This document shows, in pieces, positions 6,820 to 27,955 of a DNA stretch of 64,000 nucleotides; positions within the stretch are counted from its first letter, which is position 1; every line of letters begins with the position of its first letter. Source of the DNA: an uncultured Ruminiclostridium sp. (lineage in GTDB: Bacteria > Bacillota > Clostridia > Oscillospirales > Ruminococcaceae); NCBI GenBank assembly GCA_934454635.1, contig CAKSFR010000001.1, positions 124,001-188,000 on the forward strand. The letters are read 5' to 3'. The position numbers and the translations under genes are program-made. The notes under the pieces were generated by a model that ran no database searches, was not told the DNA's origin, and saw only the letters and a list, made by a program, of their open reading frames with translations.

Positions 6820-8241
6820 TTATTCTAATACTGAAATTGCGTCGCCTATTGTCTTTTCGTAGGCTTCCTTGCCATACTTGTCTACACCCGCCTTATTCTT
6901 TTCTCCGTGAGTGAGACAGCCCGCGCCGCCTATACAGCCGCCCGTACACGCCATACCTTCAATGAAGTTTGCGTCAAGCAGATTTTTACTCTTTTTGAGC
7001 AGCGCCACACGGCAAGCTTCAATTCCATCGCAGGCGCAAGGCTTTAAATCGAACTCTATTCCCTGTTCTTTAAGACCCTGAGCAACTGCGTCGGAAAGAC
7101 CTCCCGAACGGGCGAAAATTCGTCCGAAATAAGATGCATTGTCAAGAACATCTTCATGCAGTGTGGTAATATCAAGATCACGGCTGTCAAACAGCGCCTG
7201 AAGCTCTTCAAAAGTCATTGCCGCGTCAACGTATGGCTTAACCGAATCTCTCTGTACTTCGGCTTTTTTAGCTGTGCATGGTCCTATAAACACAACCTTG
7301 CAGGGTGCGTCATGCTCCTTGATGTATTTTGAAATCGTGCCCATAGGCGAAAGATTGTGCGATACATAAGGCAATAACTCAGGCAAGGATTTCTCAATAT
7401 AGTTTACAAATGCCGGACAGCATGAACTTGTGAGGAAGCCCTTTTCCGCAAGTTCTCTGGATTCGGAATACGCAACCATATCCGCGCCCAAAGCCGCTTC
7501 AATAACCGTATAGAAGCCGAGCTCCTTTAATCCCGCAATTACCTGACCGAGCTTTGCATAAGTAAACTGGCTGGAAATAGCCGGTGCAACAACAGCAAAC
7601 ACCTTGTAATTGCGATTATTGTCGCTCTTTTTGATAATGTCGATAACATCAAGAATGAATGACTTATCGGAAATAGCACCGAAAGGACACTGATATACAC
7701 ATGCTCCACAGGCAATGCACTTTTCATTGTCAATAGCAGCCGCCTTGTCTTCATTCATATGAATTGCCTTTATTTTGCAGGCATTTTCGCAGGGACGTTT
7801 GCGGTCAACTATTGCGGTATAGGGGCAGACTTTTGCGCACGCACCGCAGTTTACGCACTTTGATTTATCAATATGCGCAACGTGCTGATGATCGAACGTG
7901 ATTGCACCGCGCTTGCACACGTCTTCACAGCGGTGAGCAAGACAGCCGCGGCAAGAATTTGTAACCTCATATCCGCCCATAGGACACTCATCACAAGCGG
8001 TTTCAATAACCTCGATAACGTTTGAATTGCTTTCGTCGCCGCCCATGGCAAGCTTAACTCGTTCACTTAAAATAGCGCGTTCTTTATAAACGCAGCATCT
8101 CATAGTGGGCGTTTTTCCGGGAACAATAATTTTCGGTATATCAAGCAGATTGTCAAGCAAAGTGTCATTCCACGCCTGTCGTGCCACTTCTCTAAGAACC
8201 TTATATTTTAGGTACTGCACCTTAGTATCGAACTTTCTCAT
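6820..8241 (-). CDS. [FeFe] hydrogenase-like protein, probably group B
   Basis: A 473-residue iron-sulfur enzyme carrying all three H-cluster regions: L1 TSSCCPAF (271-278), L2 GPCTAKKAE (320-328) and L3 EGMACTGGCIGG (428-439), so the four H-cluster cysteines (C274 or C275, C322, C432, C436) are present. Two [4Fe-4S] ferredoxin motifs (CVNCGACAKVCP at 129 and CIACGACVYQCP at 175) feed it, and an extra Cys-rich stretch at 83-109 precedes them. The Met to Gly change in L2 and Phe instead of Trp in L1 fit the poorly studied group B rather than bidirectional group A. It probably uses ferredoxin for H2 evolution, or senses redox state. It is the last gene of the rex-ferredoxin cluster. Confidence 0.85.
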   Translation of the reverse strand: MRKFDTKVQYLKYKVLREVARQAWNDTLLDNLLDIPKIIVPGKTPTMRCCVYKERAILSERVKLAMGGDESNSNVIEVIETACDECPMGGYEVTNSCRGCLAHRCEDVCKRGAITFDHQHVAHIDKSKCVNCGACAKVCPYTAIVDRKRPCENACKIKAIHMNEDKAAAIDNEKCIACGACVYQCPFGAISDKSFILDVIDIIKKSDNNRNYKVFAVVAPAISSQFTYAKLGQVIAGLKELGFYTVIEAALGADMVAYSESRELAEKGFLTSSCCPAFVNYIEKSLPELLPYVSHNLSPMGTISKYIKEHDAPCKVVFIGPCTAKKAEVQRDSVKPYVDAAMTFEELQALFDSRDLDITTLHEDVLDNASYFGRIFARSGGLSDAVAQGLKEQGIEFDLKPCACDGIEACRVALLKKSKNLLDANFIEGMACTGGCIGGAGCLTHGEKNKAGVDKYGKEAYEKTIGDAISVLE

Positions 8242-8608: not shown

Positions 8609-9226
8609 TCACGATATTCTTTTGTTTAAGTAAGCAAGCGAAAGCGCCATATTTTCGTATTGAACAGGAATTTCCGGAGAAACCGAAAGCACACACGGCG
8701 CAAAACACCATATTGCTTTTATTCCGACGCCTACAAGACGATCACAGACCATCTGCGCACTGTTTGAAGGTACGGCGATAATTCCTATTCTAACATTGTT
8801 ATTTCTACAAAATTGTTCTAAATCATTCATTGAATAAATCGGCTTTCCCGAATTGCTGTGCTGTATTTCATTCACAGCGGTATCAAAAGCCGCTATTATA
8901 TCAAGCCCGTAATCTCTGAATCCGCCGTAATCAAGCAGCGCTCTGCCAAGCTTTCCCGCGCCGACCAGCACAACCTTGCTGTTCTCATCTGCCCCGAGAA
9001 ATTTCTCAAGCGCAGCTATAAGCTCGCCGACATTGTATCCTGTTTTGGGTCTGCCCGCGCCGCTTACTGCTCCGAGATCCTTACGAACCTGAACTTCGCC
9101 TAAGCCAAGTTCTTTTGCAAGAGATGCGGAAGAAATGTTTTCGGTATTATTACGCGTGCTTTTAAGGTGTCTGAGATAAATCGGAATGCGTCCCATGGTT
9201 GCCCGCGAAACTTCAACCTGCTTCAC
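8609..9226 (-). CDS. rex: Redox-sensing transcriptional repressor Rex
   Basis: A 205-residue NAD(H)-sensing repressor. An N-terminal winged helix (residues ~5-75: IPIYLRHL through LGLGEVQVRKDLGAV) binds DNA when NADH/NAD+ is low. The Rossmann domain has VLVGAGKLGRALLDYGGF for NAD(H), followed by the domain-swapping C-terminal helix. The start is a GTG at 9226, eight bases after AGGAGG; an in-frame GTG at 9235 would overlap that site. It lies between the fumarate-reductase operon and the hydrogenase genes, which makes both likely targets. Confidence 0.93.
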   Translation of the reverse strand: MKQVEVSRATMGRIPIYLRHLKSTRNNTENISSASLAKELGLGEVQVRKDLGAVSGAGRPKTGYNVGELIAALEKFLGADENSKVVLVGAGKLGRALLDYGGFRDYGLDIIAAFDTAVNEIQHSNSGKPIYSMNDLEQFCRNNNVRIGIIAVPSNSAQMVCDRLVGVGIKAIWCFAPCVLSVSPEIPVQYENMALSLAYLNKRIS

Positions 9227-9254
9227 AAAATCCACCTCCTGAAAGAATTAATAA

Positions 9255-9292
9255 GGCTGCACCGCACCACGATATGATAATGCGGCGCAGCC
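9255..9292 (-). terminator. Stem-loop between the frd operon and rex
   Basis: GGCTGCACCGCA (9255-9266) pairs with TGCGGCGCAGCC (9281-9292), with one mismatch. The minus-strand tail is TTATTAATTC, only partly U-rich. Since just 20 bases separate it from the rex ribosome site, it probably allows read-through into rex. Confidence 0.6.
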
Positions 9293-9302
9293 ATAAAACG
9301 TT

Positions 9303-9623
9303 TTACGAATTTTTTTCCGCAAGTTCTGCCGCCTGGTCAAGCTTTCTGTTTCTGAAATAGAGACCAACATCTATCGAAATCGCTACGAAATTGATAATGT
9401 AGAAGATAAAACTCAAGATAAATATAAATCCAAGCTCCTTCTGACCGCCTGTCGCTTCGATAACCTTTTTAACAATACCGAAAATGTATCCGACAAGAAG
9501 GAAAATTTCAAAGAAAAGGCTCTTACCCTTTGCTGTGCGTGAAATGTAGGATTTGCGAATAGAAATCGGCCACGAAAGACCAAAACAGAATATCATCAGT
9601 GCTTCGAGTAAATCTGTAACCAT
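9303..9623 (-). CDS. Small membrane protein resembling a PQ-loop/SemiSWEET half transporter
   Basis: A 106-residue protein with three predicted membrane helices (about residues 5-25, 38-60 and 66-90). The segment LSWPISIRKSYISRTAKGKS between helices 1 and 2 has the spacing of a PQ-loop repeat, as in SemiSWEET and related small transporters, though Gln after Pro is replaced. It is the last gene of the mdh-fumC-hdr-flx-frd run, 27 bases after frdA. It is not a classic cytochrome b anchor: I see no clear pattern of haem-binding His. It could be a membrane tether or a metabolite carrier; both are inference. Confidence 0.6.
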   Translation of the reverse strand: MVTDLLEALMIFCFGLSWPISIRKSYISRTAKGKSLFFEIFLLVGYIFGIVKKVIEATGGQKELGFIFILSFIFYIINFVAISIDVGLYFRNRKLDQAAELAEKNS

Positions 9624-9650
9624 GTTTTTGTCCAGCTTTCTTTTGTGTAA

Positions 9651-11249
9651 TTATTTTTTTCTGCGATAATCAGGCAGAAGCTTGGGAGAAACTGCGTCAG
9701 TCTTTATGCCTGCCGCTTCACGCTCTGCGTCAAACTTTGCGATGTGATCAAGCGTCAGCTTTCCGACAGTAACTTCCTTTGCGCGTGCAGACGCATTTTT
9801 GCCTGCGCTTCTTCCGAATACGATTATGTCGAGAAGAGAGTTGCCCATAAGGCGGTTGCGTCCGTGAATACCGCCAACCGCTTCACCTGCAACAAACAAA
9901 TTTTCAACATTGGTGGTCATGCCGTTTACGTCAATATCAAGACCGCCATTCTGATAGTGAAGCGTAGGATAAACAAGGATAGGTTCCTTGCGAATATCAA
10001 TTCCACAGCCCGCAAACATACGCATCATTGCGGGAATACGCTTTTCAATAGTGCCTTCGCCGCCTATCGCTTCAATCATAGGCGTGTCGAGCCATACAGC
10101 CTCGCCGCTGCCGGTGTTTACGCCCTCGCCGCGGTCGGAGCATTCGCGAATAATGGAAGCTGCCGCAACGTCGCGGGTTTCAAGCGGATGCATGAATACC
10201 TTACCGTCACGATTTACAAGCTTAGCGCCGAGCGAACGAACCTTTTCGGTAACAAGTGCACCGAAAATCTGCTGCGGGAATGCTGCGCCGGTCGGATGAT
10301 ACTGAAGAGTATCCGCATAAAGAAGCTTTGCACCGACGCGATAACCGAGTACAAGGCCGTCAGCAGTTGCACCGTAGTGGTTAGATGTCGGGAATCCCTG
10401 ATAGTGCATACGCCCGGCACCACCTGTTGCGATAATAACCGTCTTTGCACGCGCAACCATAAGCTCATGTGTTTCCATGTTCATGAGAACTGCGCCTGCT
10501 GCTCTACCCTTTTCGTCGAGGATAAGCTCAATTGCCGAAGTAAAATCAACAATTTCAATGCCGCGGTTGATTACTTCGTCACGAAGCGTACGCATAATCT
10601 CCGCACCTGAATAGTCCTTTGCAGCGTGCATACGTTTTCTTGAGGTTCCGCCGCCGTGTGTAGTGATCATTGTTCCGTCGGGAGCCTTATCAAACTCAAC
10701 TCCGAGGTCGTTAAGCCACTGGATAGCTTCGGGAGCGTCACAAACCAGCTTTGCGAGAAGTTCGCGTTTAGCAGCGTAATGTCCACCGCCGAATGCGTCA
10801 ACAAAATGGATTGCGGGAGAATCATTGGGCTTGTCGGCTGCCTGAATGCCGCCCTCTGCCATCATTGTATTCGCGTCGCCCATGCGAAGCTTTGTAACGA
10901 TCATAGTCTTTGCGCCCGCATTGTCAGCCTCAATAGCCGCAGAAGCGCCTGCGCCGCCGCCGCCGATAATAAGAACGTCAACATCATACTTTACATTGTC
11001 GAGATCAACGTCGTTTGCGGAAATTCTGCTGTGTGCCTGAAGCATTTCGCAGAGCTCATGCGGGACTTCTTCGCCTTTGTTCGGACCAATCTTTAAAACA
11101 GAAAATTCGCTCTTCTTATAGTCAGGGTGATAAGCCGCAAGAAGATCTTCCTTTTCTTTCGCAGTCATTCTGGCAGGCTCATAAGCTATATTTTCAGCTC
11201 TTGCCGCCTCAACTGCCGCCAAGGATTCCTGAAATTCTTTTGAATACAT
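9651..11249 (-). CDS. frdA: Soluble fumarate reductase flavoprotein subunit
   Basis: A 532-residue FAD protein of the FrdA/SdhA/TfrA family reducing fumarate to succinate. FAD site GGGGAG (96-101). Active-site blocks are HPTG with His318, TEKVR, PTLHYQNGG and GRNRLMGNSLLD, so the dicarboxylate-binding His and Arg residues are conserved. The residue that covalently binds FAD in respiratory FrdA (His in SHT) is Asn127 here, so FAD is probably non-covalent, as in thiol:fumarate reductase. An unusual ~87-residue N-terminal extension precedes the FAD domain, and the C-terminal helical region is short. GGAGG lies 9 bases before the ATG. The iron-sulfur partner is directly upstream. Confidence 0.85.
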   Translation of the reverse strand: MYSKEFQESLAAVEAARAENIAYEPARMTAKEKEDLLAAYHPDYKKSEFSVLKIGPNKGEEVPHELCEMLQAHSRISANDVDLDNVKYDVDVLIIGGGGAGASAAIEADNAGAKTMIVTKLRMGDANTMMAEGGIQAADKPNDSPAIHFVDAFGGGHYAAKRELLAKLVCDAPEAIQWLNDLGVEFDKAPDGTMITTHGGGTSRKRMHAAKDYSGAEIMRTLRDEVINRGIEIVDFTSAIELILDEKGRAAGAVLMNMETHELMVARAKTVIIATGGAGRMHYQGFPTSNHYGATADGLVLGYRVGAKLLYADTLQYHPTGAAFPQQIFGALVTEKVRSLGAKLVNRDGKVFMHPLETRDVAAASIIRECSDRGEGVNTGSGEAVWLDTPMIEAIGGEGTIEKRIPAMMRMFAGCGIDIRKEPILVYPTLHYQNGGLDIDVNGMTTNVENLFVAGEAVGGIHGRNRLMGNSLLDIIVFGRSAGKNASARAKEVTVGKLTLDHIAKFDAEREAAGIKTDAVSPKLLPDYRRKK

Positions 11250-11263
11250 CGACTTTATCCTCC

Positions 11264-11938
11264 TTACTTCTCTATATCTCTGTTATTATAGAGTTCTTTT
11301 ATCTCCTTAATCGGCTTACCCATAAGGTTTTCGATAAGTTCGGTAAATGTTCCGTCCTTAATTTCCTTTACACGGTTCGCGAGATGTTCAGTCTTAGGTG
11401 CGAGATATTTTCCGTTAAGACGGCGTGCAAGCATTGCGACCTGCGGGTGAGAGATACCTGCGGGGCAGCGTGATGAACAAACGCCGCACATTACGCAGTC
11501 AAAAGATTCTTCAGCGCACTTATCGAACTCGCCGCGCTGAGCATATGCGATGTACTGCATAACGTTCAGCTCCTGAGTACAGCTCTTTGTGCAGGCGTTG
11601 CAGCCGACGCAAGCATAAATTTCAGGATAAAGCTGCATCATTATCTGTTCTGTCGGCTTAATTTTTTCGATATCGTAAACCTGCTTCACAAGCGGGAAGA
11701 AAGGCAGAGTTGCGATATACATATTGTTTTCAACCTTTGTCTGGCAGGCAAGACAGGTCTTGAGTTCCCTGTCGCCCTTAATACGATAAATCGTAGCGCA
11801 GGCGCCGCAGAAACCGTTACGACAGCCGCAGCCGCGAACGAGCTGATAACCGGCGTATTCCATAGCGCGCATGATCGTCAGGTCGTCGGGTACGCTGTAC
11901 TGCTTGCCGAACAGGTAAATGTTAACCATATTTTCCAT
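11264..11938 (-). CDS. frdB: Fumarate reductase iron-sulfur subunit (TfrB N-terminal-like)
   Basis: A 224-residue electron-transfer subunit. An N-terminal [2Fe-2S] plant-type domain (CGCRNGFCGAC, then TCLAC) is followed by two four-Cys motifs, CVGCNACTKSCT and CVMCGVCSSRCP, suggesting two [4Fe-4S] clusters where respiratory FrdB has one [3Fe-4S]. It lacks the CCG domains fused in archaeal TfrB; those are encoded separately here as hdrB. I start at the ATG at 11938, which has AAGGAG nine bases upstream. The upstream in-frame ATG at 11965 overlaps flxA and has no ribosome site. It probably links HdrBC or FlxABC to the flavoprotein. Confidence 0.82.
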   Translation of the reverse strand: MENMVNIYLFGKQYSVPDDLTIMRAMEYAGYQLVRGCGCRNGFCGACATIYRIKGDRELKTCLACQTKVENNMYIATLPFFPLVKQVYDIEKIKPTEQIMMQLYPEIYACVGCNACTKSCTQELNVMQYIAYAQRGEFDKCAEESFDCVMCGVCSSRCPAGISHPQVAMLARRLNGKYLAPKTEHLANRVKEIKDGTFTELIENLMGKPIKEIKELYNNRDIEK

Positions 11939-11954
11939 GTTCAAATTCTCCTTA

Positions 11955-12788
11955 TCAGTATTCATCGGGAAGCTCGTCAATCTGGTCGCAGCGGAAAACG
12001 GGACCGTCCTTGCAGACATACTTTGAACCGATGTTGCATCTGCCGCACTTGCCTATTCCGCACTTCATGCGAAGCTCCATAGTCGTATACACCTGAGTTT
12101 TGTCGAAGCCAAGTTCCTGAAGCCCCGCAAGTGTGAACTTAATCATTATAGGCGGACCGCAAAGAATAGCAATTTTATCGGTTGAAAAGCCGAGTTCCTT
12201 TACATAATTGGGCACAAAACCGACATGACCGTCCCATTCGGGCTGTTCACGGTCGATCGTAAGGTGAACATTAACGCCTGTATCCTTAGCCCATTCGTTG
12301 ATAATTTCCTGATAGTCTACGAGATCCTGCATACTGCGCGAACCGTATACAATATCAATTTTTCCGTAGCGGTCGCGGTAATGACGGCAATAATTTATAA
12401 CAGAGCGAAGCGGAGCAAGTCCGATACCGCCCGCGATAAAAAGCATATCATGACCGGCAAATTCCGTATCCACAGGGAATGCATTGCCATAAGGTCCGCG
12501 TATGGTGATCTGCTGTCCGACCTCCATGGAATGGAGCCACTCGGTAACGCAGCCGCACTTCTTTATGGAAAACTCCATAAATTCGGTATTTGTAGGCGAC
12601 GAAGTGATTGAGAACATAGCTTCTCCCACTCCGGGAATCGACAGCATTGCGCACTGTCCGGGCTTGTGTTCAAAAGCTTTTTTGCCGTCGGGAGTAACTA
12701 CGCGAAAGGTCTTTACGTCGGGAGTATCAATTCTGATATCTGTAACAACGCCAACCACAGGGATAAGCGGTTCTTTCATATCAATCAT
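11955..12788 (-). CDS. flxA: FAD/NAD(P)H-binding oxidoreductase subunit FlxA
   Basis: A 277-residue NAD(P)H-oxidising subunit related to AsrB and dihydroorotate dehydrogenase subunit K. An FAD-binding barrel (residues ~10-100) is followed by the NAD domain (MLFIAGGIGLAPLRSVI and AILCGPPIMIKF) and a C-terminal [2Fe-2S] site MKCGIGKCGRCNIGSKYVC. It probably takes electrons from NADH into the Flx-Hdr complex. The start at 12788 shares ATGA with the flxB stop and has GGAGG nine bases upstream. Confidence 0.82.
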   Translation of the reverse strand: MIDMKEPLIPVVGVVTDIRIDTPDVKTFRVVTPDGKKAFEHKPGQCAMLSIPGVGEAMFSITSSPTNTEFMEFSIKKCGCVTEWLHSMEVGQQITIRGPYGNAFPVDTEFAGHDMLFIAGGIGLAPLRSVINYCRHYRDRYGKIDIVYGSRSMQDLVDYQEIINEWAKDTGVNVHLTIDREQPEWDGHVGFVPNYVKELGFSTDKIAILCGPPIMIKFTLAGLQELGFDKTQVYTTMELRMKCGIGKCGRCNIGSKYVCKDGPVFRCDQIDELPDEY

Positions 12789-13807
12789 TTTATGCTTCCT
12801 CCTAACTTTTTCATTACCTTTACAATATTCATCTGAATAGGACATTTAGCCATGCATCTGCCGCAGCCCACGCAGGAGAACAGACCGTCATTGTTGGTCG
12901 GATAGTAGACTAGCTTGTGCATAAAGCGCTGACGGAAGCGTTCAAGCTGAGTGAGTCTGGGCTGACCTGCCGACATTTTGGTAAATTCGGAGTACATACA
13001 GGAATCCCAACAGCGGAAACGCTTTACACCGTGACCCGTGTTGAAATCCTTGATATCGTAGCACTGACAGGTCGGGCATACAAATGTGCAGGTTCCGCAG
13101 CCGAGACACGACTCGGAAAGTTCTTTCCACTCGGGCGCGTCAAAGAATACAGAGGTTTTCCCGCTTCCGAACGCTTCGGCGGAAAGTTCCGCGAGCGGAA
13201 GCTTTTTTAGCCGCTGTGCAATAACATTTTTCTGCTCATTCACTGCCGTATCGTTGCTTTCTTCCGTTATAGAAGAAAGCTTTTCAAGCAGTTTTTCGCC
13301 CTTTTCGGTCTTTGCGTCCATATAAAGCGCATCATCGGTCTTGTAGCAAACTATATCTCCCTCGGGGTTTGCAGCGTCTATCCCGAAAGTTCCGCAGAAA
13401 CAGGTTTCATGCGGCTTTGTGCAAGCCATAGACATGATCACGGCGTGATCGCGGCGATTCTTATAATACGAATCAACAGGTTCGGCAAGGAATACACGGT
13501 CGAGAACTTCAAAGCTCTTGACATCGCAGGCGCGAACTCCGAAAATAACAAAATCCTCGCATTCGCTGCGCGTATCGATTACCTCAATACTCTTCCCTTC
13601 CATCTTAAAATCCATAAGGTTTTCAGTCTGGGGGAAGAAGAAATCCTTTGCGCTTCTTACAGTGTTAAGAGCGTTGGAAAGCGTTTTTCCGCTTTCCCAT
13701 TTTTCATACTTTGCACCGGTTTCGGTATCAACGGGCAGGTAAAGAGTTTCAGCTTCGGAAATCGCTGAAAAAAGCGAATCAAGCTTATCCAGTGAAATTT
13801 TACGCAT
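12785..13807 (-). CDS. flxB: 4Fe-4S dicluster protein FlxB
   Basis: A 340-residue iron-sulfur protein of the AsrA/HydB-like family. Residues ~60-160 hold the conserved FGVRACDVKSF and CTKPHETCFCGTFG segments. Two [4Fe-4S] motifs follow, CLGCGTCTFVCPTCQC near 220 and CVGCGRCMAKCP near 315. It passes electrons from FlxA toward HdrA. The ATG at 13807 has GAGG eight bases before it; the GTG at 13816 overlaps the ribosome site. It overlaps flxC by 8 bases and flxA by 4, indicating tight translational coupling. Confidence 0.8.
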   Translation of the reverse strand: MRKISLDKLDSLFSAISEAETLYLPVDTETGAKYEKWESGKTLSNALNTVRSAKDFFFPQTENLMDFKMEGKSIEVIDTRSECEDFVIFGVRACDVKSFEVLDRVFLAEPVDSYYKNRRDHAVIMSMACTKPHETCFCGTFGIDAANPEGDIVCYKTDDALYMDAKTEKGEKLLEKLSSITEESNDTAVNEQKNVIAQRLKKLPLAELSAEAFGSGKTSVFFDAPEWKELSESCLGCGTCTFVCPTCQCYDIKDFNTGHGVKRFRCWDSCMYSEFTKMSAGQPRLTQLERFRQRFMHKLVYYPTNNDGLFSCVGCGRCMAKCPIQMNIVKVMKKLGGSIK

Positions 13808-14792
13808 TTCCGTCACCTCTTTCTACTGCTTCTCCCGGCTCTAAATCGTCTGTTGTGTAATTCACAATCGGCGCGCGGCTTCCGATTTCCGCACCGGCCT
13901 GATATTCACCATAGAAGTTATCGATATCCTTGATGAACTTTCGGTTGAGCAGATGAAGCGGAATATGCTGCGGGCATACACGCGAGCATTCACCGCAGTC
14001 TGTACAGCGCCCTACAACGTGAAATGCACGGATAATATGGAACATTTTTTCTTCAAACGAGTTGGCCGCAGCCTTATTTTCAACGCCCGAATTTGGATTG
14101 TCAAACACGCATTTTTCGCAAGTGCAGGCGGGACATACGTCGCGGCACGCATTGCAGCGAATGCAGCGTGAAAGTTCATTCTGCCAGAAAGCAAAACGCT
14201 CGTCCGGAGTCATTTTTTCGATTTTTTCAACTTCATCGAATCTTGCCGAGTCGATAACATCACCGTCGTTTCCGAGAAGCTCGTCGTATGCAACGTGCTT
14301 CTTGGACTTGCAGTTCATACATCTATCGGGAAGAACAGCTGTTCTGTCGAGTGTAAGGCTTCCGTCATAAAGCGTATCGACGATAACCTTATCGCCGTCA
14401 TCACGAACTGCGGAAATACCGTCGGCAGCAGCCTTGATACGACCTGCGTCAAGCATACCGTTGCAAGGCACGCCGACAGCGTATACCTTTTCACGGTCAA
14501 ATCTATGCTCGGTGAGCAGCTGATTGAAGCTGTATGTATCACACGGTTTCAGAAAAACAAGAATTTTATTTTCGCTCTTGCCTGTTTCCTTTACAAGATA
14601 CTTGGAAAAGTTTGCTCCGCAAAAATCATTCCATACAAATTCTTTTTCAAGCTCGTCTGCCGTGCGGAAAATAGCAGGCGTTACATCATAATCAAATTCT
14701 CCCTTCTTCCAGCCGAGAACGCGGTCAACAGCACCGCTGTTCAGCATTTCGGAAGCCTTGGAAATGAGAATTTCGCGCTTTATTTCTTGCAT
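13800..14792 (-). CDS. flxC: 4Fe-4S dicluster protein FlxC
   Basis: A 330-residue relative of FlxB and of coenzyme F420-hydrogenase/formate-dehydrogenase beta-type subunits. An N-terminal region with FLKPCDTYSF and VGVPCNGM is followed by CMNCKSKKH and two ferredoxin motifs, CIRCNACRDVCPACTCEKC and CTDCGECSRVCPQHIP. It is probably an electron wire between the NADH-oxidising subunit and HdrA/FlxD. GGAGG seven bases before the ATG fixes the start. It overlaps both flanking genes. Confidence 0.8.
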   Translation of the reverse strand: MQEIKREILISKASEMLNSGAVDRVLGWKKGEFDYDVTPAIFRTADELEKEFVWNDFCGANFSKYLVKETGKSENKILVFLKPCDTYSFNQLLTEHRFDREKVYAVGVPCNGMLDAGRIKAAADGISAVRDDGDKVIVDTLYDGSLTLDRTAVLPDRCMNCKSKKHVAYDELLGNDGDVIDSARFDEVEKIEKMTPDERFAFWQNELSRCIRCNACRDVCPACTCEKCVFDNPNSGVENKAAANSFEEKMFHIIRAFHVVGRCTDCGECSRVCPQHIPLHLLNRKFIKDIDNFYGEYQAGAEIGSRAPIVNYTTDDLEPGEAVERGDGNA

Positions 14793-15214
14793 CGCAAATC
14801 CTCCAATCTCTTGTTTTCGCCGAGAGAAGCAACCTTTTCGGCAAAATCATTCATTGTTGCGGCAAATTTTGCGCCCTCAGCCGCACTTACCCACTCAACG
14901 CGCGTGCGTTCTCTTTCGATTCCCAAATAATCGAGCATTGAGAAAAGCAGAGCCATGCGGCGGCGTGTGTAATAGTTGCCCGAGGTATAGTGGCAGTCGC
15001 CCGGGTGGCAGCCGCAGATAATAACACCGTCAGCACCGCGCTGGAAAGCACGGAGAATAAACATCGGGTTTACTCTGCATGAGCAAGGCACACGAATAAT
15101 TTTTACGTCTGCCGGATAGTTAAGTCTGTTGTTTCCTGCGAGGTCGGCGCCGGCATACGAACACCAGTTACAGCAGAACGCCACAATAAGCGGCTTATAA
15201 TCATTTACTTGCAT
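14780..15214 (-). CDS. flxD: MvhD-like [2Fe-2S] linker subunit FlxD
   Basis: A 144-residue protein of the MvhD (methyl-viologen hydrogenase delta) family. The signature is CCNWCSYAGADLAG near residue 14, with further Cys residues in RVPCSCRVNP and ICGCHPGDCHY. In known complexes MvhD bridges the electron-input module and HdrA. The start at 15214 lies within the end of hdrA and has GGAGG ten bases upstream. Its presence directly after hdrA is a strong marker of a soluble electron-bifurcating Hdr complex. Confidence 0.9.
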   Translation of the reverse strand: MQVNDYKPLIVAFCCNWCSYAGADLAGNNRLNYPADVKIIRVPCSCRVNPMFILRAFQRGADGVIICGCHPGDCHYTSGNYYTRRRMALLFSMLDYLGIERERTRVEWVSAAEGAKFAATMNDFAEKVASLGENKRLEDLRCKK

Positions 15215-17199
15215 ATTGCGTCTACCTCCGCCATAATTTGTTTGCTTGTGAAGCCGCGCAGATCCATAGCGCCGGACATACAAGCTACCGTACAAGCGCC
15301 GCAGCCCTGACAAACAGCTTCGTTTACAGAAGCTACACGGCGAACCTTTGCTGTTCTGTCGGGCATTCTGAATTCCTTGTCAATATACGAAATCGCGCCG
15401 TACGGACAAACCTTTTCACAGGTCGAACAGCCGTTACACATCATTTCGTCGGAATGTGCAACGCACGGGTTACCGGTCAGCTTATCCTTGCAGAGAAGTC
15501 CGATTACCTTTGAAGCGGCAGCACCCGCCTGAGATACCGTTTCGGGAATATCCTTCGGACCCTGACAGGTTCCCGAAAGGAAAACACCTGCCGTGGGGCT
15601 TTCTACGGGACGGAGCTTCGGGTGAGCCTCAGTGAAGAAGTCGTTTGTATCCATGCTCGCGGTGAGCATTGTCGCAAGAGGTCTTGCGGACTTGTCAGGC
15701 TCGATTGCAGCGGCAAGAACAACAAGATCGGCGTCGATATGAAGCTGCTTTCCGTAAATAAGATCAGAAGCCTGAACCTTTAACTTTCCGTTTTCGGGCG
15801 AAACTTTTCCGACCATGCCCTTTATGTAGTGAACACCGTATTCTTCAACAGCGCGGCGATAGAACTCATCAAAATTCTTGCCGGGCGTACGAACGTCAAT
15901 ATAAAATACATAAACATCTGTATCGGGATATTTATCGCGAATAAGCATTGCGTGCTTTGCAGTATACATACAGCAAATCTTCGAGCAGTATTCCTTGCCC
16001 TTTTCGGCACACGCCGAGCAGCGGGAACCAACGCACTGAACAAAAACGATTGTGTGAGGGTGTTCGCCGTCAGAGGGACGGAGCAGAGTACCACCGGTAG
16101 GACCTGCCGCGTTCATCAGTCGTTCAAGCTCAAGCGAAGTGATAACATCTTTTGAAGCGGAGTAAGCAAATTCGTCGAACTTTTCCATCGAAATCGGGTT
16201 AAAGCCCGTTGCAACAACGATTGCGCCGTACTTCTCTTCAACAAATTCGTCTTTCGCGTTATAGTCGATTGCGCCTGCCGAGCAAACCTTAGAGCAGACT
16301 CCGCACTTGCCTGTTTTAAGCATTGTGCAGTAATTCGGGTCAATGGTAGCAACCTTCGGAACTGCCTGTGCAAACGGAATATAGATCGCTCTGCGATTGT
16401 CCATACCGAGATTAAATTCATTCGGAACTTTTTTCTGGGGACATTTTTCGGTACAAAGACCGCAGCCTGTGCAAATATCCTCCTTGACATATCTCGCTTT
16501 GCGCTTTATTGTAACATCAAAATTTCCGACAAATCCCTTAACAGCAGTTACTTCAGAATAAGAGAAAATGCGGATTTTTTCATTCTGGGCAACATCAACC
16601 ATTTTAGGTGTGAGAATACAAGCTGCGCAGTCGAGCGTCGGGAAAGTCTTGTCAAGCTGAGCCATCTTTCCGCCGATAGTGGGCTTTGTTTCAACAATAT
16701 CTACCGGGAAGCCTGCGTCCGCAATATCAAGGGCAGTCTGGATTCCGGCGATGCCTCCGCCGATTACAAGAGCGCGCTTTGTAACAGGGCTTTCGCCCGG
16801 CGTAAGCGGAGCGTTAAGATTAACTTTCGCTACGGCAGCCTTTCCGAGAATGATTGCCTTTTCGGTTCCTATAGGCATATCCTTATGTACCCATGAACAC
16901 TGTTCGCGGATATTGGCGATTTCCACCATATAAGGATTAAGTCCCGCAGCGGCAGCCGTTTTGCGGAATGTCGCTTCATGCATACGCGGTGAACATGAAC
17001 ATACAACTATTCCCGTAAGCTTATGCTCGGCAACAGCTTCCTTTATCATGTTCTGACCCGCCTGAGAACACATATACTGATAATCTGTGGAGAAAACAAC
17101 ACCCGGCTCTTTTCCGAGAGTCTCCGCAACTGTTTTGACATCTACCGTTCCGGCGATGTTAGTACCGCAGTGGCAGACAAATACTCCAATTCTTTGCAT
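15205..17199 (-). CDS. hdrA: Heterodisulfide reductase subunit A, electron-bifurcating flavoprotein
   Basis: A 664-residue core subunit carrying the bifurcating FAD. The N-terminus has Cys motifs (VCHCGTN, VCSCSPRMHE). The FAD/NAD fold is ALVIGGGIAGIQ, followed by GGKMAQLDKTFPTLDCAACILTPKM. [4Fe-4S] motifs are CTGCGLCTEKCP, CGVCSKVC, and at the C-terminus CNGCSTCEKVCP and CQGCGACTVACM. In methanogen MvhADG-HdrABC and bacterial Flx-Hdr the flavin splits an electron pair between ferredoxin and HdrBC. Length and motifs are complete. AAAGGAG precedes the ATG by nine bases. Confidence 0.95.
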   Translation of the reverse strand: MQRIGVFVCHCGTNIAGTVDVKTVAETLGKEPGVVFSTDYQYMCSQAGQNMIKEAVAEHKLTGIVVCSCSPRMHEATFRKTAAAAGLNPYMVEIANIREQCSWVHKDMPIGTEKAIILGKAAVAKVNLNAPLTPGESPVTKRALVIGGGIAGIQTALDIADAGFPVDIVETKPTIGGKMAQLDKTFPTLDCAACILTPKMVDVAQNEKIRIFSYSEVTAVKGFVGNFDVTIKRKARYVKEDICTGCGLCTEKCPQKKVPNEFNLGMDNRRAIYIPFAQAVPKVATIDPNYCTMLKTGKCGVCSKVCSAGAIDYNAKDEFVEEKYGAIVVATGFNPISMEKFDEFAYSASKDVITSLELERLMNAAGPTGGTLLRPSDGEHPHTIVFVQCVGSRCSACAEKGKEYCSKICCMYTAKHAMLIRDKYPDTDVYVFYIDVRTPGKNFDEFYRRAVEEYGVHYIKGMVGKVSPENGKLKVQASDLIYGKQLHIDADLVVLAAAIEPDKSARPLATMLTASMDTNDFFTEAHPKLRPVESPTAGVFLSGTCQGPKDIPETVSQAGAAASKVIGLLCKDKLTGNPCVAHSDEMMCNGCSTCEKVCPYGAISYIDKEFRMPDRTAKVRRVASVNEAVCQGCGACTVACMSGAMDLRGFTSKQIMAEVDAICK

Positions 17200-17216
17200 G
17201 GTCTGTTTCTCCTTTC

Positions 17217-17609
17217 TTACTTAGAATATTTGCGCATAGCGCTCATGATTGCCTGCTGTGGCATATCTTCGTCAATAAGCCCGGGAATATCGTTCGCGGT
17301 AAGGTGATTTGCGCCTTTTTCGCGGATAACCGTAAGTCTGATTGCTTCAACCAACTTCGCAGGCTCAACTCCTCTCGGACAGCGGTCAACACAAGCGAAG
17401 CACGAAAGACACTTGTATATCGAATCCGATTTCATAAGGCTCTCAATATCGCCCGTTTCAACCATATAAACAAACTGATGAGGGTGATATTCCATTTCAT
17501 CGTAAGAAGGACATGTGCCGGAGCACTTTCCGCATCGCATACATTTAAGCGGATTTACGCCGCTCATGCGAAGTATCTGCTCCTTCTGACGTTCGGTTTT
17601 ATTCTGCAT
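17217..17609 (-). CDS. hdrC: Heterodisulfide reductase subunit C
   Basis: A 130-residue ferredoxin-like subunit with two [4Fe-4S] motifs, CMRCGKCSGTCP and CLSCFACVDRCPRG. It carries electrons from HdrA to HdrB. The start at 17609 overlaps the last 11 bases of hdrB and has AAGGAGG six bases upstream; the longer reading frame from 17642 lacks a site. Confidence 0.93.
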   Translation of the reverse strand: MQNKTERQKEQILRMSGVNPLKCMRCGKCSGTCPSYDEMEYHPHQFVYMVETGDIESLMKSDSIYKCLSCFACVDRCPRGVEPAKLVEAIRLTVIREKGANHLTANDIPGLIDEDMPQQAIMSAMRKYSK

Positions 17610-18405
17610 GAGTATCCTCCTTAACGCCAAGCGCTTCTGCAAGCAGCTCGGTAAAGTATACTACGGGGATTTCGCTGCCGTTTTTTACGAGATTGTACTT
17701 GCAGAGCGGGCAGGCTGTTACAATAACTTCCGCGCCGTTTTTAGCTGCACTTTCGCTTACCGCGTTAGACTTTTTCTTAGCTGAAGCTGCGTCCTCAAGA
17801 GCGACATAGCCGCCGCAGCACTCGTTTCTCTGAGCATAAACAACAGGCTCAGCGCCAAGCGCAGTAATGAAATCTTCCATTATGCGAGGATTTTCGACAT
17901 CATCGAAATTCATTACCTTACCGGGGCGAAGAAGCATACAGCCGTAATAAGCCGCAACTTTCCTGCCCGTAAGCGGCTTAACGACAGCCTCTTTTATCTT
18001 GTCAAATCCGACAATATCACGAAGCATTTCCAGGTAATGATAAACCTCTGTTTCGCCGTGATACGGTTTGGTCGGATTTTTATCCTGCGCCATGTAAAGA
18101 TTTGCTTTTGACGCAAATTCTTCATCAGTACCCATGGCATGATTTGTCTGCTTTATTACATTATGACAGGCTGAACACACCGTAACAAGTGGACGCGCCT
18201 CATCTCTTGCGGCAGCAAGCGCTCTGACGCTCGGAAGCTTAGACGCAACCTCGTCCTTTGCGCTTACAAAAACACCGCCGCAACACTGCCAGTTCTCGAT
18301 TTCGCACATTTCAACGCCTAAAATTTCAGCACATTTACGCGCATAAAAATCGAGATCTTTAGCCTTGGTTCGGAGAGTACAGCCGGGAAAATAGCTGACT
18401 TTCAT
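17599..18405 (-). CDS. hdrB: Heterodisulfide reductase subunit B (two CCG domains)
   Basis: A 268-residue subunit with both CCG domains intact: first GCTLR, WQCCGGVF and VCSACHN; second GCMLLRP, ECCGGYV and ACPLCKYN. These bind the non-cubane [4Fe-4S] clusters that reduce a disulfide in methanogens. Bacteria without coenzyme M/B use them on other acceptors, such as DsrC in sulfate reducers. No DsrC is encoded here, so the high-potential acceptor is open; the adjacent fumarate reductase is the natural candidate. I use the ATG at 18405 (AAAGGA 11 bases upstream) rather than the ATG at 18417, which abuts the ribosome site. Confidence 0.93.
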   Translation of the reverse strand: MKVSYFPGCTLRTKAKDLDFYARKCAEILGVEMCEIENWQCCGGVFVSAKDEVASKLPSVRALAAARDEARPLVTVCSACHNVIKQTNHAMGTDEEFASKANLYMAQDKNPTKPYHGETEVYHYLEMLRDIVGFDKIKEAVVKPLTGRKVAAYYGCMLLRPGKVMNFDDVENPRIMEDFITALGAEPVVYAQRNECCGGYVALEDAASAKKKSNAVSESAAKNGAEVIVTACPLCKYNLVKNGSEIPVVYFTELLAEALGVKEDTHAE

Positions 18406-18431
18406 TTTTCTGACCATTCCTTTCGCCGGGA

Positions 18432-19808
18432 TTAAACCATCTGTTCGGGATGGAAAACTTCATCAAATTTTTCTGCCGTAAGGAAACCTAACTCAACGCA
18501 CGCTTCCTTTAAGGAAATATTGTCCTTATAAGCCTTTTTAGCTGTCTTTGCGGCATTCTCATAGCCTATGTAAGGATTGAGAGCCGTAACAAGCATAAGG
18601 GAATTATGCAGGTTGTGGTGCATTTTATCACGGTTTGCGGTAATTCCTACAGCACAGTTATTATTGAACGAAACAATCGCTTCTGCAAGCAGACGCGCAG
18701 ACTGAAGGAAGTTATATATTGTTACGGGCATGAATACGTTAAGCTCAAAATTGCCCTGAGAAGCAGCCATTCCGACAGCGACATCGTTGCCCATTACCTG
18801 AACGGCAACCATTGTAACGGCTTCGCACTGCGTGGGATTTACCTTGCCGGGCATAATCGAAGAACCGGGTTCGTTTTCGGGAATATGAATCTCTCCAAGA
18901 CCGTCGCGCGGACCGCTTGCAAGCCAACGTACATCGTTCGCGATCTTCATCATGTCGCAAGCGGTAGCTTTGATAGCTCCGTGAGCAAAAACTATTTCGT
19001 CTTTTGAAGTAAGCGCGTGGAATTTGTTGGAAGCTGTCACAAAAGGCTTGCCTGTAAGTTCTGCAACCTTCTTTGCAACAAGCTCGGAAAATCCTGCGGG
19101 AGCGTTAAGTCCGGTTCCGACTGCGGTTCCGCCGAGCGCCAACTCGTGAAGCGGTCTAACCGCCATTTTCAGAAGCTCAACATCTCTTTCAAGACTGCTT
19201 CTCCAGCCGGAGATTTCCTGACTGAATTTTATCGGCGTTGCGTCCTGTAAATGAGTGCGTCCCGATTTTACGATTCCCTCGTTTTCTTCCTCAAGGCGCT
19301 TGAAAGTAGCAATAAGCAGTTCAACTGCGGGAAGAAGCTTGTCTTCAATAGCGAGAACCGCGGAAATATGCATTGCTGTCGGGAAAGTGTCGTTGGACGA
19401 CTGGCTCATGTTTATGTCGTCGTTTGGGTGGCAAAGCTTTTCGCCCGCAATCTGATTTGCGCGGTTGGCAATTACCTCATTCGCATTCATATTCGACTGC
19501 GTTCCGGAGCCTGTCTGCCAAACAACAAGCGGAAAATGGCTGTTAAGTTCGCCGGAAATTACTTCATCGCAGGCTGCGGAAATCGCAGCGAGTTTTGCAG
19601 ACGTCATCTTTTCGGGCTTAAGCTCCGCGTTGGCAAGGGCTGCCGCTTTCTTGAGTATTCCGAAAGCGTGCGTAATTTCCCTAGGCATTGTTTCGATATC
19701 TACGCCGATTTTGAAATTCTCATGGCTTCTCTGCGTCTGCGCCGCCCAAAGACGATCGGCAGGAACCTTCATTTCGCCCATGGAGTCATGTTCGATACGG
19801 TATTCCAT
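18432..19808 (-). CDS. fumC: Class II fumarate hydratase
   Basis: A 458-residue cofactor-free fumarase interconverting malate and fumarate. Family marks are SGTQSNMNANEV, the catalytic His/Ser regions TPIKFSQE and the signature GSSIMPGKVNP. Length is standard. It follows mdh by 17 bases and precedes hdrB by about 26 bases, placing fumarate formation and reduction in one transcript. AGAAAGGTG lies before the ATG. Confidence 0.95.
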   Translation of the reverse strand: MEYRIEHDSMGEMKVPADRLWAAQTQRSHENFKIGVDIETMPREITHAFGILKKAAALANAELKPEKMTSAKLAAISAACDEVISGELNSHFPLVVWQTGSGTQSNMNANEVIANRANQIAGEKLCHPNDDINMSQSSNDTFPTAMHISAVLAIEDKLLPAVELLIATFKRLEEENEGIVKSGRTHLQDATPIKFSQEISGWRSSLERDVELLKMAVRPLHELALGGTAVGTGLNAPAGFSELVAKKVAELTGKPFVTASNKFHALTSKDEIVFAHGAIKATACDMMKIANDVRWLASGPRDGLGEIHIPENEPGSSIMPGKVNPTQCEAVTMVAVQVMGNDVAVGMAASQGNFELNVFMPVTIYNFLQSARLLAEAIVSFNNNCAVGITANRDKMHHNLHNSLMLVTALNPYIGYENAAKTAKKAYKDNISLKEACVELGFLTAEKFDEVFHPEQMV

Positions 19809-19825
19809 TTTGTTTTCACCTTTCT

Positions 19826-20770
19826 TTATATTTTAAGATTATTGATAACATCTTTTAAGGTGTCTGCACTGTAACGCAGCTTTGCGATTTCTTCATCGGT
19901 AAGTGGAACATTTACCTTGTTGCGTACACCGTTGCGTCCGACAGCGATAAGCGTGCTGAGGCATACATCGTCAATGCCATACTCGCCGTGCATCATTGTG
20001 GAAACGGTCATTGTTGTGTCAATACCGCTGAGAACGCACTTGCAGATGTGACATACAGACATTGAAACGGCATAGAATGTTGCGCCCTTGCGCGCGATAA
20101 CACGTCCGCCGGATTTTCTTACATATTCCTCAATTTCGCTGTAATTTATCTCGGGATAAGTGAAATCGGAATTGGAGAAAATGTTCTGACACTCATTTAT
20201 CGGAACATTTGAAATGTTTGCAACAGACCACGGAATAAACGAAGAATCTCCATGTTCACCAAAAACATATGCATGAACATTATTCTGGCTGATGTTGTAA
20301 TATTCTGAAAGTCTTGCACGAAGACGCGCAGTATCAAGAATCGTACCGGAGCCGATAATACGGTTTTCGGGGAGTCCCGAGATTTTATGGAAAGTATAGG
20401 TCAGAATATCAACGGGATTTGAAACGATAATATATGTAGCGTCGGGAGCATATTTTGTAATTTCGGGAATAATCGTCTTTGTGATGTCGATATTCACCTG
20501 CGCAAGTTCAAGGCGAGACTGACCTGCTTTTCTGGCCATGCCGGATGTGAGAATTACAATGTTGGAGTCTTTTGCATCGGGATAATCGCCTGCATAAATC
20601 GAGCAGGGAGCGCAGAAAGGAGTTCCCTGTCTTATGTCGAGGGCTTCGCCGAGCGCTTTTTCGCTGTTGATATCGATCATAACGATTTCCGATGCCATTC
20701 CCATCATGGCAATGGAGTAAGCGATTGTGGAACCGACACTGCCGGTTCCGATAATGGAGATTTTGTTCAT
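19826..20770 (-). CDS. mdh: Malate dehydrogenase of the LDH-like family
   Basis: A 314-residue NAD-dependent 2-hydroxyacid dehydrogenase. NAD fold IIGTGSVGSTIAYS; catalytic pair in LDTARLRARL and VFGEHGDSS. At the substrate-specificity position in SGMARKAGQSR the residue is Arg80, where lactate dehydrogenases have Gln; Arg recognises the second carboxylate of oxaloacetate/malate. I therefore call malate rather than lactate dehydrogenase, and the fumC neighbour supports this. It is the first gene of the malate-to-succinate operon and has its own promoter. Confidence 0.78.
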   Translation of the reverse strand: MNKISIIGTGSVGSTIAYSIAMMGMASEIVMIDINSEKALGEALDIRQGTPFCAPCSIYAGDYPDAKDSNIVILTSGMARKAGQSRLELAQVNIDITKTIIPEITKYAPDATYIIVSNPVDILTYTFHKISGLPENRIIGSGTILDTARLRARLSEYYNISQNNVHAYVFGEHGDSSFIPWSVANISNVPINECQNIFSNSDFTYPEINYSEIEEYVRKSGGRVIARKGATFYAVSMSVCHICKCVLSGIDTTMTVSTMMHGEYGIDDVCLSTLIAVGRNGVRNKVNVPLTDEEIAKLRYSADTLKDVINNLKI

Positions 20771-20806: not shown

Positions 20807-20834
20807 ATTGTATCACAATCCGACAGTATTCGGA
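20807..20834 (-). promoter_or_regulatory. Promoter and inverted repeat upstream of mdh
   Basis: Minus-strand TACAAT (20812-20807) preceded by TGA gives an extended -10. TCCGA (20819-20823), six bases, TCGGA (20830-20834) forms an inverted repeat over the -35 position, which has no good -35 hexamer. It could be an operator for a repressor or activator of the fumarate operon. Confidence 0.5.
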
Positions 20835-20902: not shown

Positions 20903-22312
20903 TTACTTCGAGCTAAGATATTCGTCTATCGCTTTGCTTGCGGTTTTTCCCGCACCCATAGCAAGAATAACCGTCGCAGCGCCGGTTACCGCGTCGCCGC
21001 CGGCATAAACGCCCTCTCTGGAGGTCAGACCTGTATCCTCTTCAACGATGATTCCGCCCCATTTCTGGGTTTCAAGACCGTGCGTGGTATTCTTAATAAG
21101 CGGATTGGGAGATGTTCCGAGCGCCATTATAACGCAATCAACATCCATGGTAAATTCGCTTCCTGGAATTTCAACAGGACGGCGGCGACCTTTTTCATCA
21201 GGCTCACCAAGCTCCATGCGAATGCATTCGATAGCTTTAACAAAGCCATTTTTAGGATCTCGTGGATCGTCGGGGTTTTCGTAGCCGATAATGCGTACAG
21301 GATTATGAAGCAGCTTGAAATCAATTCCCTCTTCCATCGCGTGTTCAACTTCTTCGCGGCGTGCGGGAAGTTCTTCCATTGAACGCCGATAAACAATGCT
21401 TACCTGCGCGCCAAGACGAAGAGCTGTTCTCGCAGCGTCCATTGCCACGTTGCCGCCGCCGACTACCGCAACTCGTCCGCCTTTCATTATAGGCGTAGCC
21501 GAATCATCGCGATAAGCTTTCATAAGATTGCTTCTGGTAAGAAATTCATTTGCGGAATAAACGCCTTTAAGACCCTCGCCTTCAATTCCCATAAACTTAG
21601 GAAGACCTGCGCCGGAACCGATAAATACAGCTTCAAACCCGTCTTCAAAAAGTTCGTCAACCGTAAGCGTTTTTCCGATAACGACATTTGTTTCAATATC
21701 AACGCCAAGCGCTTTCAAGGTTTCAACTTCCTTTGCCACGATAGCTTTCGGGAGTCTAAACTCAGGAATCCCGTATACAAGCACACCGCCTGCGGTATGA
21801 AGCGCCTCGAAAACCGTAACCTTATAGCCTTTCTTTGCAAGGTCGCCCGCGCAGGTAAGTCCCGATGGACCGGAACCGACAACGGCAACCTTGTGACCGT
21901 TAAATTCAGGCTTCTTCGGAAGTTCCTTTGCGTTTTCATTGTGCCAGTCGGCGACAAATCTTTCAAGCCGGCCTATTCCGACAGGTTCAAACTTAATTCC
22001 GAGAGTACATTTGCTTTCGCACTGTGATTCTTGGGGACATACTCTGCCGCATACAGCAGGCAAAGAAGAAGACTTTGAAATCACCTGATACGCTCCCTCA
22101 AAATCACCTTTTTTAATGTGGTCGATAAAATCGGGAATTTCAATATTTACCGGACAGCCACTGATGCAGGGCTTGTTTTTGCAGTTAAGACAGCGATTCG
22201 CTTCTTCAACTGCAATTTCCGCAGTATAACCGAGTGCAACTTCGTTAAAATTGCAGGCTCTTGCCTTCGCGTCCTGCGTCGGCATTTCATGTTTCTTGGG
22301 TTCGACAGCCAT
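20903..22312 (-). CDS. nfnB: NfnB / GltD-like NADPH-dependent flavoprotein
   Basis: A 469-residue flavoprotein of the glutamate-synthase small-subunit family. The N-terminus holds the Fe-S helical domain (CLNCKNKPCISGCP and CGRVCPQESQCESKC). An FAD fold (VAVVGSGPSGLTCAGDL) and an NADPH fold (VAVVGGGNVAMDAARTA) follow. No glutamate synthase large subunit is nearby, and the partner directly upstream is an NfnA-type protein, so I call it the large subunit of NADH-dependent ferredoxin:NADP oxidoreductase, which bifurcates NADPH electrons to NAD+ and ferredoxin. AAGGAGG precedes the ATG. Confidence 0.87.
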   Translation of the reverse strand: MAVEPKKHEMPTQDAKARACNFNEVALGYTAEIAVEEANRCLNCKNKPCISGCPVNIEIPDFIDHIKKGDFEGAYQVISKSSSLPAVCGRVCPQESQCESKCTLGIKFEPVGIGRLERFVADWHNENAKELPKKPEFNGHKVAVVGSGPSGLTCAGDLAKKGYKVTVFEALHTAGGVLVYGIPEFRLPKAIVAKEVETLKALGVDIETNVVIGKTLTVDELFEDGFEAVFIGSGAGLPKFMGIEGEGLKGVYSANEFLTRSNLMKAYRDDSATPIMKGGRVAVVGGGNVAMDAARTALRLGAQVSIVYRRSMEELPARREEVEHAMEEGIDFKLLHNPVRIIGYENPDDPRDPKNGFVKAIECIRMELGEPDEKGRRRPVEIPGSEFTMDVDCVIMALGTSPNPLIKNTTHGLETQKWGGIIVEEDTGLTSREGVYAGGDAVTGAATVILAMGAGKTASKAIDEYLSSK

Positions 22313-22324
22313 TGCTTCTCCTCC

Positions 22325-23173: not shown

Positions 23174-23283
23174 ATGTGATACTCTCCTTTTTTGAGATAT
23201 TTCCTGTAAAACTGAAACGGAAAACAAGATTATATTATAAATTTATTAATTAAATATCGACTCAATTCTCCATTATCTTTTTT

Positions 23284-27951: not shown

Positions 27952-27955
27952 ACAA

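Follow-up and report, generated by a model that had tools for sequence, protein, structure and literature searches.

A stretch of 64,000 nucleotides (nt) from an uncultured Ruminiclostridium sp. (GCA_934454635.1, contig CAKSFR010000001.1, positions 124,001–188,000 of the forward strand) was analyzed and is referred to as the window, whose positions are used as coordinates. It contains an operon of twelve minus-strand open reading frames (ORFs) at 9303–20770, which encodes malate dehydrogenase, fumarase, a seven-subunit FlxABCD-HdrABC module, a two-subunit fumarate reductase (FrdAB), and a small membrane protein. A preliminary description of this DNA had recognized twelve such genes with gaps under 40 bases; all of them were located, the widest gap being 27 bases (between frdA and the small-protein gene), and the names it had given them agree with the family matches. 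The listed starts of several genes were too far upstream. Shine–Dalgarno sequences favor starts at 17609 for HdrC, 15214 for FlxD, 12788 for FlxA, and near 11938 for FrdB, by which the long overlaps disappear and neighboring genes either overlap slightly or lie only a few bases apart. The features are listed below in the order of transcription.

19826–20770, minus strand: mdh, malate dehydrogenase of the lactate dehydrogenase (LDH)-like family
18432–19808, minus strand: fumC, class II fumarase (TIGR00979, 703 bits, above cut-off)
17599–18417, minus strand: hdrB, HdrB/SdhE-like subunit with two CCG domains and ten cluster cysteines
17217–17609, minus strand: hdrC, subunit with two [4Fe-4S] motifs (TIGR03290, 64 bits, below cut-off); start moved, Shine–Dalgarno AAGGAGG
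15205–17199, minus strand: hdrA, HdrA2-like flavoprotein, the proposed bifurcating subunit (NF040770, 792 bits over residues 3–663, cut-off 1100)
14780–15214, minus strand: flxD, MvhD/FlpD-type subunit (PF02662, E-value 2.1e-55); start moved on the Shine–Dalgarno sequence
13800–14792, minus strand: flxC, 4Fe-4S dicluster subunit
12785–13807, minus strand: flxB, HydB/AsrA-like iron–sulfur (Fe-S) subunit (PF17179, E-value 2.8e-29; NF040829, 194 bits, below cut-off); start at 13807 or 13816
11955–12788, minus strand: flxA, FAD/NAD(P)H-binding subunit (PF00175, PF00970, PF10418; NF006220, 228 bits, below cut-off); start moved
11264–11938, minus strand: frdB, subunit with one [2Fe-2S] and two [4Fe-4S] clusters, without a CCG domain; start near 11938
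9651–11249, minus strand: frdA, fumarate reductase flavoprotein with an 85-residue N-terminal extension and a shortened C-terminus
9303–9623, minus strand: small membrane protein of 106 amino acids (aa), three predicted helices, candidate succinate exporter
9255–9292, minus strand: terminator-like hairpin of 16 pairs between the last operon gene and rex

Subunits and cofactor motifs

FrdA fell below the curated cut-off for all 25 models among the matches listed, of 55 matched, and is therefore regarded as a distinct subfamily; its best NCBIfam model was TfrA. The structure model (predicted local distance difference test, pLDDT, 87) found E. coli FrdA (1kf6) as its best Foldseek match. In an alignment of 120 FrdA sequences, 80 of which are close relatives of the window, the catalytic His/Glu/Arg/His/Arg set, equivalent to His232, Glu245, Arg287, His355, and Arg390, is invariant (120/120), and a Thr is kept in 119. 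The flavin-linking His is replaced by Asn in 119 of the 120, and such a replacement favors fumarate reduction over succinate oxidation. The sole family member that keeps this His (L070) lies within the set whose frdA is linked to Flx-Hdr genes.

Twelve of the thirteen FrdB cysteines checked are invariant in all 103 aligned sequences, from which pieces shorter than 190 aa were excluded, since start choices had shortened some products (e.g., FlxD in L121). Position C89 is Cys in 67/67 sequences of the window's clade versus 1/36 of the others. FrdB has 251 aa against the 488 positions of the TfrB model (NF004898) and does not contain its CCG domain. This model was matched in part by FrdB (19–94), HdrC (107–220), and HdrB (376–470), all below the cut-off, and also by FlxC (130–203). 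TfrB, a subunit of the methanogen enzyme, thus fuses in one protein the three parts that are proposed here as an electron wire. The preliminary description had spoken of a thiol:fumarate-reductase-like pair, which is right in spirit; FrdB, however, does not carry the CCG (HdrB-like) half of TfrB, and the corresponding parts are encoded separately by hdrC and hdrB.

All seven FlxABCD-HdrABC subunits were found, and the cluster motifs are intact in HdrB and HdrC. HdrA aligned end to end with a solved HdrA structure (5odc_A, E-value 6.8e-205), and HdrB scored 157 bits against the SdhE subunit model (cut-off 500). FlxA would use NADH rather than NADPH. At the head of the operon, the mdh product scored above the cut-off against NCBIfam L-lactate dehydrogenase models. 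It carries Arg80 at the substrate-discriminating site, as do all 51 aligned sequences including that of the window, at the position where LDHs carry Gln (Gln102). Because Arg replaces this Gln, malate dehydrogenase is the better call, and the LDH identity was set aside despite the model scores.

Conservation of the gene linkage

A scan of GTDB contigs gave at least 590 stretches encoding a FrdA relative, among 597. The best 80 of these were kept; they show 81–92% identity, and their record titles name largely metagenome-assembled genomes from ruminant and other animal guts. The order and strand of hdrB-hdrC-hdrA-flxD-flxC-flxB-flxA-frdB-frdA are kept in 59/59 of the fetched loci whose sequence upstream of frdA is longer than 8.5 kb. 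Among the same 59, fumC is present in 56, and mdh was found in 50 of the 56 relatives with more than 9.9 kb upstream. The linkage of frdBA with the Flx-Hdr genes also recurs at three places in the FrdA tree, as described below.

The gene directly 3′ of frdA is more variable. Over 79 loci, it encodes a membrane protein related to the AspT family in 59, the small 106-aa protein in 17, and neither in 3, and no locus has both at this position. The AspT assignment was made with PF06826 on the protein of one locus (L003) and extended to the others by their relatedness to it. In L068, the gene of the small protein occurs 2.3 kb farther along and after an AspT-family gene. One member of the AspT family, according to PMC9527358, is the succinate exporter SucE1. 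The swap of the two genes after frdA suggests that the 106-aa protein exports succinate. This protein gave no Pfam or NCBIfam match, and its weak structure model (mean pLDDT 68), in which three helices are predicted, gave no Foldseek match at E ≤ 0.001. A SemiSWEET/PQ-loop fold, an idea obtained by eye, was dropped on account of the weak model and the lack of a Foldseek match.

A wider sample was drawn from the phylum of G001. It comprised 398 genomes, 39 of which encode a FrdA of the window's family (loci L116–L154; G001 is included by construction). Near frdBA, 6 of these 39 loci carry the full Flx-Hdr set (including G001), 11 carry an Hdr module without flxA and flxB, and 4 carry hdrC-hdrB only. 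A FrdA tree was built from 58 sequences, namely the window, 14 of the 80 loci, the 39 draw loci, and 4 outgroups. The full Flx-Hdr context falls on three branches of this tree and calls for three changes, and the same minimum is forced by the well-supported branches. The gene order differs between the three: hdrBCA-flxDCBA-frdBA in the window's clade, frdBA-hdrBCA-flxDCBA in L126, L128, L134, and L135, and hdrCBA-flxDCBA-frdBA in L149. The three changes might alternatively represent one gain and two losses.

A second architecture was observed in L119, L121, L124, L125, L127, L129, L138, and L148, in which hdrB, hdrA, the gene of an HdrA-like protein of approximately 1050–1100 aa, flxD, and a flxC-like gene are followed by frdBA. 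It contains neither flxA nor flxB; in L119, where Pfam matches gave FAD and ferredoxin domains for the long HdrA-like protein, 2-oxoacid:ferredoxin oxidoreductase genes follow. Two further cases (L141 and L143) are cut by contig ends, and L146 is a variant. In five other loci (L137, L140, L144, L145, and L147), genes for malic enzyme and class I fumarase precede frdBA, assigned by Pfam in L137 and by similar length or N-terminus in the other four. No Hdr gene is nearby in these five, and their genomes carry an Hdr-Flx set elsewhere. Many HdrA genes of the 398-genome draw contain one in-frame TGA, which suggests selenocysteine; none was seen in G001 or in the 25-genome set described below.

The association also holds at the genome level. 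Among the 39 genomes with this FrdA, 35 encode HdrA (E ≤ 1e-150), versus 93 of the 359 without it (Fisher p = 4e-15, uncorrected for relatedness). Where frdBA is unlinked or stands beside hdrC-hdrB only, HdrA is encoded elsewhere in 18 of 22 genomes, and in each of the 12 such HdrA loci that were inspected, hdrB, hdrC, flxD, and flxC were present, on flanks that did not reach the flxA/flxB positions. A set of 25 genomes carrying hdrABC-flxABCD-frdAB was also examined; 20 came through chosen loci, mostly on long contigs, and 5 from the phylum draw, and their completeness is unstated. A threshold of E ≤ 1e-40 was used for HdrA copy number and absence, by which 24 of the 25 genomes have a single HdrA copy. 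RnfC scored over the cut-off in 21 of the 25.

Proposed electron path and its alternatives

We consider it probable that the operon's conversion of malate to succinate ends with an electron-bifurcating fumarate reductase that depends on NADH and is a soluble enzyme of the cytoplasm. FlxA would accept a hydride from NADH, and FlxB, FlxC, and FlxD would relay the electrons to the flavin of HdrA, where each pair would be split. One electron would pass to ferredoxin and the other to HdrC and HdrB, from which it would enter the Fe-S chain of FrdB and reach the non-covalent FAD of FrdA and finally fumarate, with no soluble disulfide as an endpoint. HdrB would thus skip the thiol step and hand its electrons straight to FrdB. 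The net reaction would be 2 NADH + fumarate + 2 oxidized ferredoxin → 2 NAD+ + succinate + 2 reduced ferredoxin, and the reduced ferredoxin would supply Rnf or the adjoining [FeFe] hydrogenase. PMC5861303 gives potentials of +33 mV for fumarate and −320 mV for NAD(P)H; the coupling is therefore expected to be exergonic, with a drop sufficient for ferredoxin reduction. The parts, cofactor motifs, catalytic residues, and linkage were read from the genes themselves, as was the absence of DsrC in the tested relatives; we infer the physical complex, the electron path, the bifurcation, and the use of NADH.

Several observations weigh against this proposal. HdrB retains the ten cysteines of both non-cubane clusters in its two CCG motifs, which are invariant in all 80 HdrB sequences aligned including that of the window (pieces shorter than 230 aa excluded). 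Since this full disulfide-type cluster set is kept, HdrB could still reduce a disulfide, and a diffusible thiol may be involved. No fusion of FrdB with an Hdr protein was seen in L116–L154. No Hdr gene was seen near frdBA in 18 of the 39 phylum-draw genomes, four of which (G239, G280, G134, and G079) have less than 3.3 kb upstream before the contig end. Moreover, 4 of the 39 (G071, G075, G300, and G384) encode FrdAB and no HdrA, so that FrdAB must take electrons from another source there. All four belong to a group of 19 rows in the FrdA tree in which the window's clade is also found, and this slightly lowers our confidence in the bifurcating reductase; G075, G300, and G384 form one branch, while G071 is a long branch of unsure placement. 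A gene of 1144 aa precedes frdB in the former three; it encodes pyruvate carboxylase in L117 and has equal length in L116 and L118. The NADH:ferredoxin/fumarate bifurcation inferred in the preliminary description stands as the best explanation, but as a proposal that is qualified by the occurrence of FrdAB of the same family without HdrA. In its favor are the constant gene order, the linkage on three tree branches, the co-occurrence with HdrA and the single HdrA copy, the counts for DsrC and MenD, the FrdA catalytic residues and the loss of the flavin-linking His, the TfrB matches, the AspT-family gene after frdA, the potentials, and the response of the P. thermosuccinogenes operon to CO2 limitation described below.

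An unlikely alternative, though the strongest of those considered, is a diffusible thiol/disulfide link, in which Flx-Hdr would reduce a disulfide together with ferredoxin, and FrdAB would oxidize the resulting thiols to reduce fumarate. Thiol:fumarate reductase and HdrABC of methanogens work in this manner with the thiols of coenzymes M and B (CoM-SH and CoB-SH). The two complete CCG cluster motifs of HdrB, the TfrA model as the best NCBIfam match of FrdA, and the separate loci of hdrABC-flxDC and frdBA in several genomes are all compatible with such a link. However, FrdB does not have the CCG domain of TfrB and hence has no obvious thiol-oxidizing site, and DsrC (PF04358) was found in 0/25 genomes of relatives with the gene set, while an E. 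coli positive control was detected. The preliminary description had stated that no DsrC or coenzyme M/B system is present, which could cover the window only; DsrC was looked for in the relatives in its place, and the window's own genome may encode an HdrB partner other than FrdB.

Slightly lower odds still can be given to mere co-expression, by which FrdAB would be fed by ferredoxin or another carrier while Flx-Hdr serves a different acceptor. The four HdrA-less genomes near the window's clade fit this explanation, which is opposed by the gene order kept at 59/59 loci, the linkage on three branches, and the single-copy HdrA that accompanies frdBA in 24/25 genomes. Reverse running (confurcation), in which succinate and reduced ferredoxin would be oxidized to generate NADH, is very improbable: HdrA-type complexes are reversible in principle, but the His-to-Asn change at the covalent-FAD position and the exporter-like gene 3′ of frdA at 59/79 loci argue for the forward direction. 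An equally poor chance is assigned to another substrate of FrdA, such as L-aspartate or another ene-acid. FrdA does resemble L-aspartate oxidase and urocanate reductase; however, the site of the substrate Glu of L-aspartate oxidase (E121) is His in 116, Phe in 3, and Lys in 1 of the 120 family members, and Glu in none, and fumC shares the operon. The least credible is that the 106-aa protein is a membrane anchor that makes FrdAB quinone-linked, as its size and helix number (like FrdC/FrdD) and its place directly after frdA would allow, because it is missing there in 62/79 relatives, 59 of which have the AspT-family gene instead, the window's copy contains no His for haem binding, and MenD over the cut-off was found in 0/25 relatives (14 weaker matches).

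General family scans gave no match to a membrane-anchor family within the operon, no genome-wide anchor search having been made, and PF02621 exceeded its cut-off in 2/25 genomes with partial and weak matches. A distant branch of the FrdAB family may nevertheless be quinone-linked, since G037, one of the 22 genomes with unlinked or hdrC-hdrB-only frdBA, has MenD over the cut-off and a cytochrome b561-type neighbor of frdBA. In the deepest-branching loci (L152 and L154), a protein of approximately 329 aa is encoded downstream of frdBA, for which Pfam gave a 4Fe-4S dicluster domain and a cytochrome b561-type domain in L152 (G037).

As a broader conjecture, which we hold only tentatively and regard as more doubtful than the bifurcating reductase itself, FrdAB of this family might serve as a high-potential arm that can be plugged into bifurcators of the Hdr type. 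It would form a direct complex with HdrB, without a diffusible thiol, and occur in the three Flx-Hdr arrangements and in a second module (HdrA, the HdrA-like protein of approximately 1050–1100 aa, and FlxD/FlxC-like proteins, beside 2-oxoacid:ferredoxin oxidoreductase genes), and the small protein would represent a new exporter family replacing AspT in part of the window's clade.

Neighboring genes and comparison with known systems

Downstream of the operon lie rex (8609–9235) and the gene of a monomeric [FeFe] hydrogenase (6820–8241; TIGR04105, above cut-off), and hydrogenase- or Rex-like genes are also near the operon in several relatives. The hairpin at 9255–9292 could end the transcript before rex; terminator-like sites across the window number 24 versus 20.9 in shuffles, i.e., they are not enriched. 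Two genes matching the two halves of an NfnBA-like pair (20903–23227) lie 132 bases upstream of mdh. In one relative (L060), NfnB is likewise encoded next to the operon, and most of the fetched loci stop short of that place. At 20807–20819, 5′ of mdh, a perfect 5-base inverted repeat (ATTGT-GAT-ACAAT) immediately precedes an AT-rich −10-like stretch, as recognized by eye, and this repeat is a possible operator. A search for Rex sites in the interval between nfnB and mdh gave no match, and the counts over the window were 10 (expected 4.45; 3 of 100 shuffles had as many) and 6 (expected 3.08; 14 of 100), so that control of the operon by Rex is unsupported. Elsewhere in the window, genes for isocitrate dehydrogenase and aconitase (37823–41774) provide an oxidative branch to 2-oxoglutarate alongside the reductive branch to succinate, and three long ORFs (3515–5248, 26863–27999, and 53986–55116) gave no Pfam match at 1e-12.

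If the proposal is correct, the operon encodes a fumarate reductase that needs neither a membrane nor a quinone, yet conserves energy by charging ferredoxin. It may be a common route to succinate in animal guts, where the calculated yields of ATP and H2 would change. It also becomes a testable question whether the electrons of HdrB can go to another protein rather than to a disulfide.

The FlxABCD-HdrABC complex of sulfate reducers, reportedly described by Ramos et al. in 2015 (cited in PMC7282089), has the same seven subunit types, all of which are present here; unlike in that system, DsrC is missing from the 25 relatives and frdBA lies inside the operon. The resemblance to methanogen TfrAB is seen in FrdA, which is nearest to the TfrA model, and in FrdB, HdrC, and HdrB, each of which matches part of TfrB. 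The TfrB parts are, however, distributed over three genes, and the scores fall well short of the cut-offs of both Tfr models. FrdA shares its fold and catalytic residues with quinol:fumarate reductase and succinate dehydrogenase (E. coli FrdAB and SdhAB), from which the present enzyme differs in the lack of a recognized anchor gene in the operon, the loss of the flavin-linking His, the four Cys of the last FrdB cluster, and the 0/25 count for MenD. HdrB also matches, below the cut-off, the SdhE model of 8-methylmenaquinol:fumarate reductase (SdhABE), a system that is distinguished from ours by the FlxABCD and HdrA genes that adjoin here.

The fumarate reductase of Desulfovibrio alaskensis is described as menaquinol-oxidizing in PMC4215793, which also states that Hdr/flox-1 mattered for pyruvate fermentation in an earlier study and not in its own. 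The Blautia luti enzyme was assayed with methyl viologen in PMC12773636, which does not mention Hdr. Among the titles listed in a literature search, none reports a purified Flx-Hdr-Frd complex.

The closest known counterpart is the "succinate operon" of Pseudoclostridium thermosuccinogenes, which, according to PMC7282089, comprises fumarase, Flx-Hdr, fumarate reductase, and a hypothetical gene that may encode a succinate transporter, and whose expression increased approximately 4-fold under CO2 limitation. Gene silencing in this species has been reported in PMC9044749. The authors of PMC7282089 assume that fumarate reduction is coupled to ferredoxin reduction, citing a 2019 preprint by Koendjbiharie and van Kranenburg. 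Hence, the novelty supposed in the preliminary description, which knew of no characterized complex of this composition, falls away: the gene set and the coupling had already been proposed. In both organisms, the genes of fumarase, the seven Flx-Hdr subunits, and a two-gene fumarate reductase form one cluster, in which no gap exceeds 27 bases in the case of the window. The likeness refers to the gene set, and the window differs by the mdh gene upstream and the 106-aa membrane protein at its end. As far as our searches go, what is new here is the breadth of the system, the recurrence of its linkage, the genomes that run counter to the proposal, and the exchange of exporter genes after frdA.

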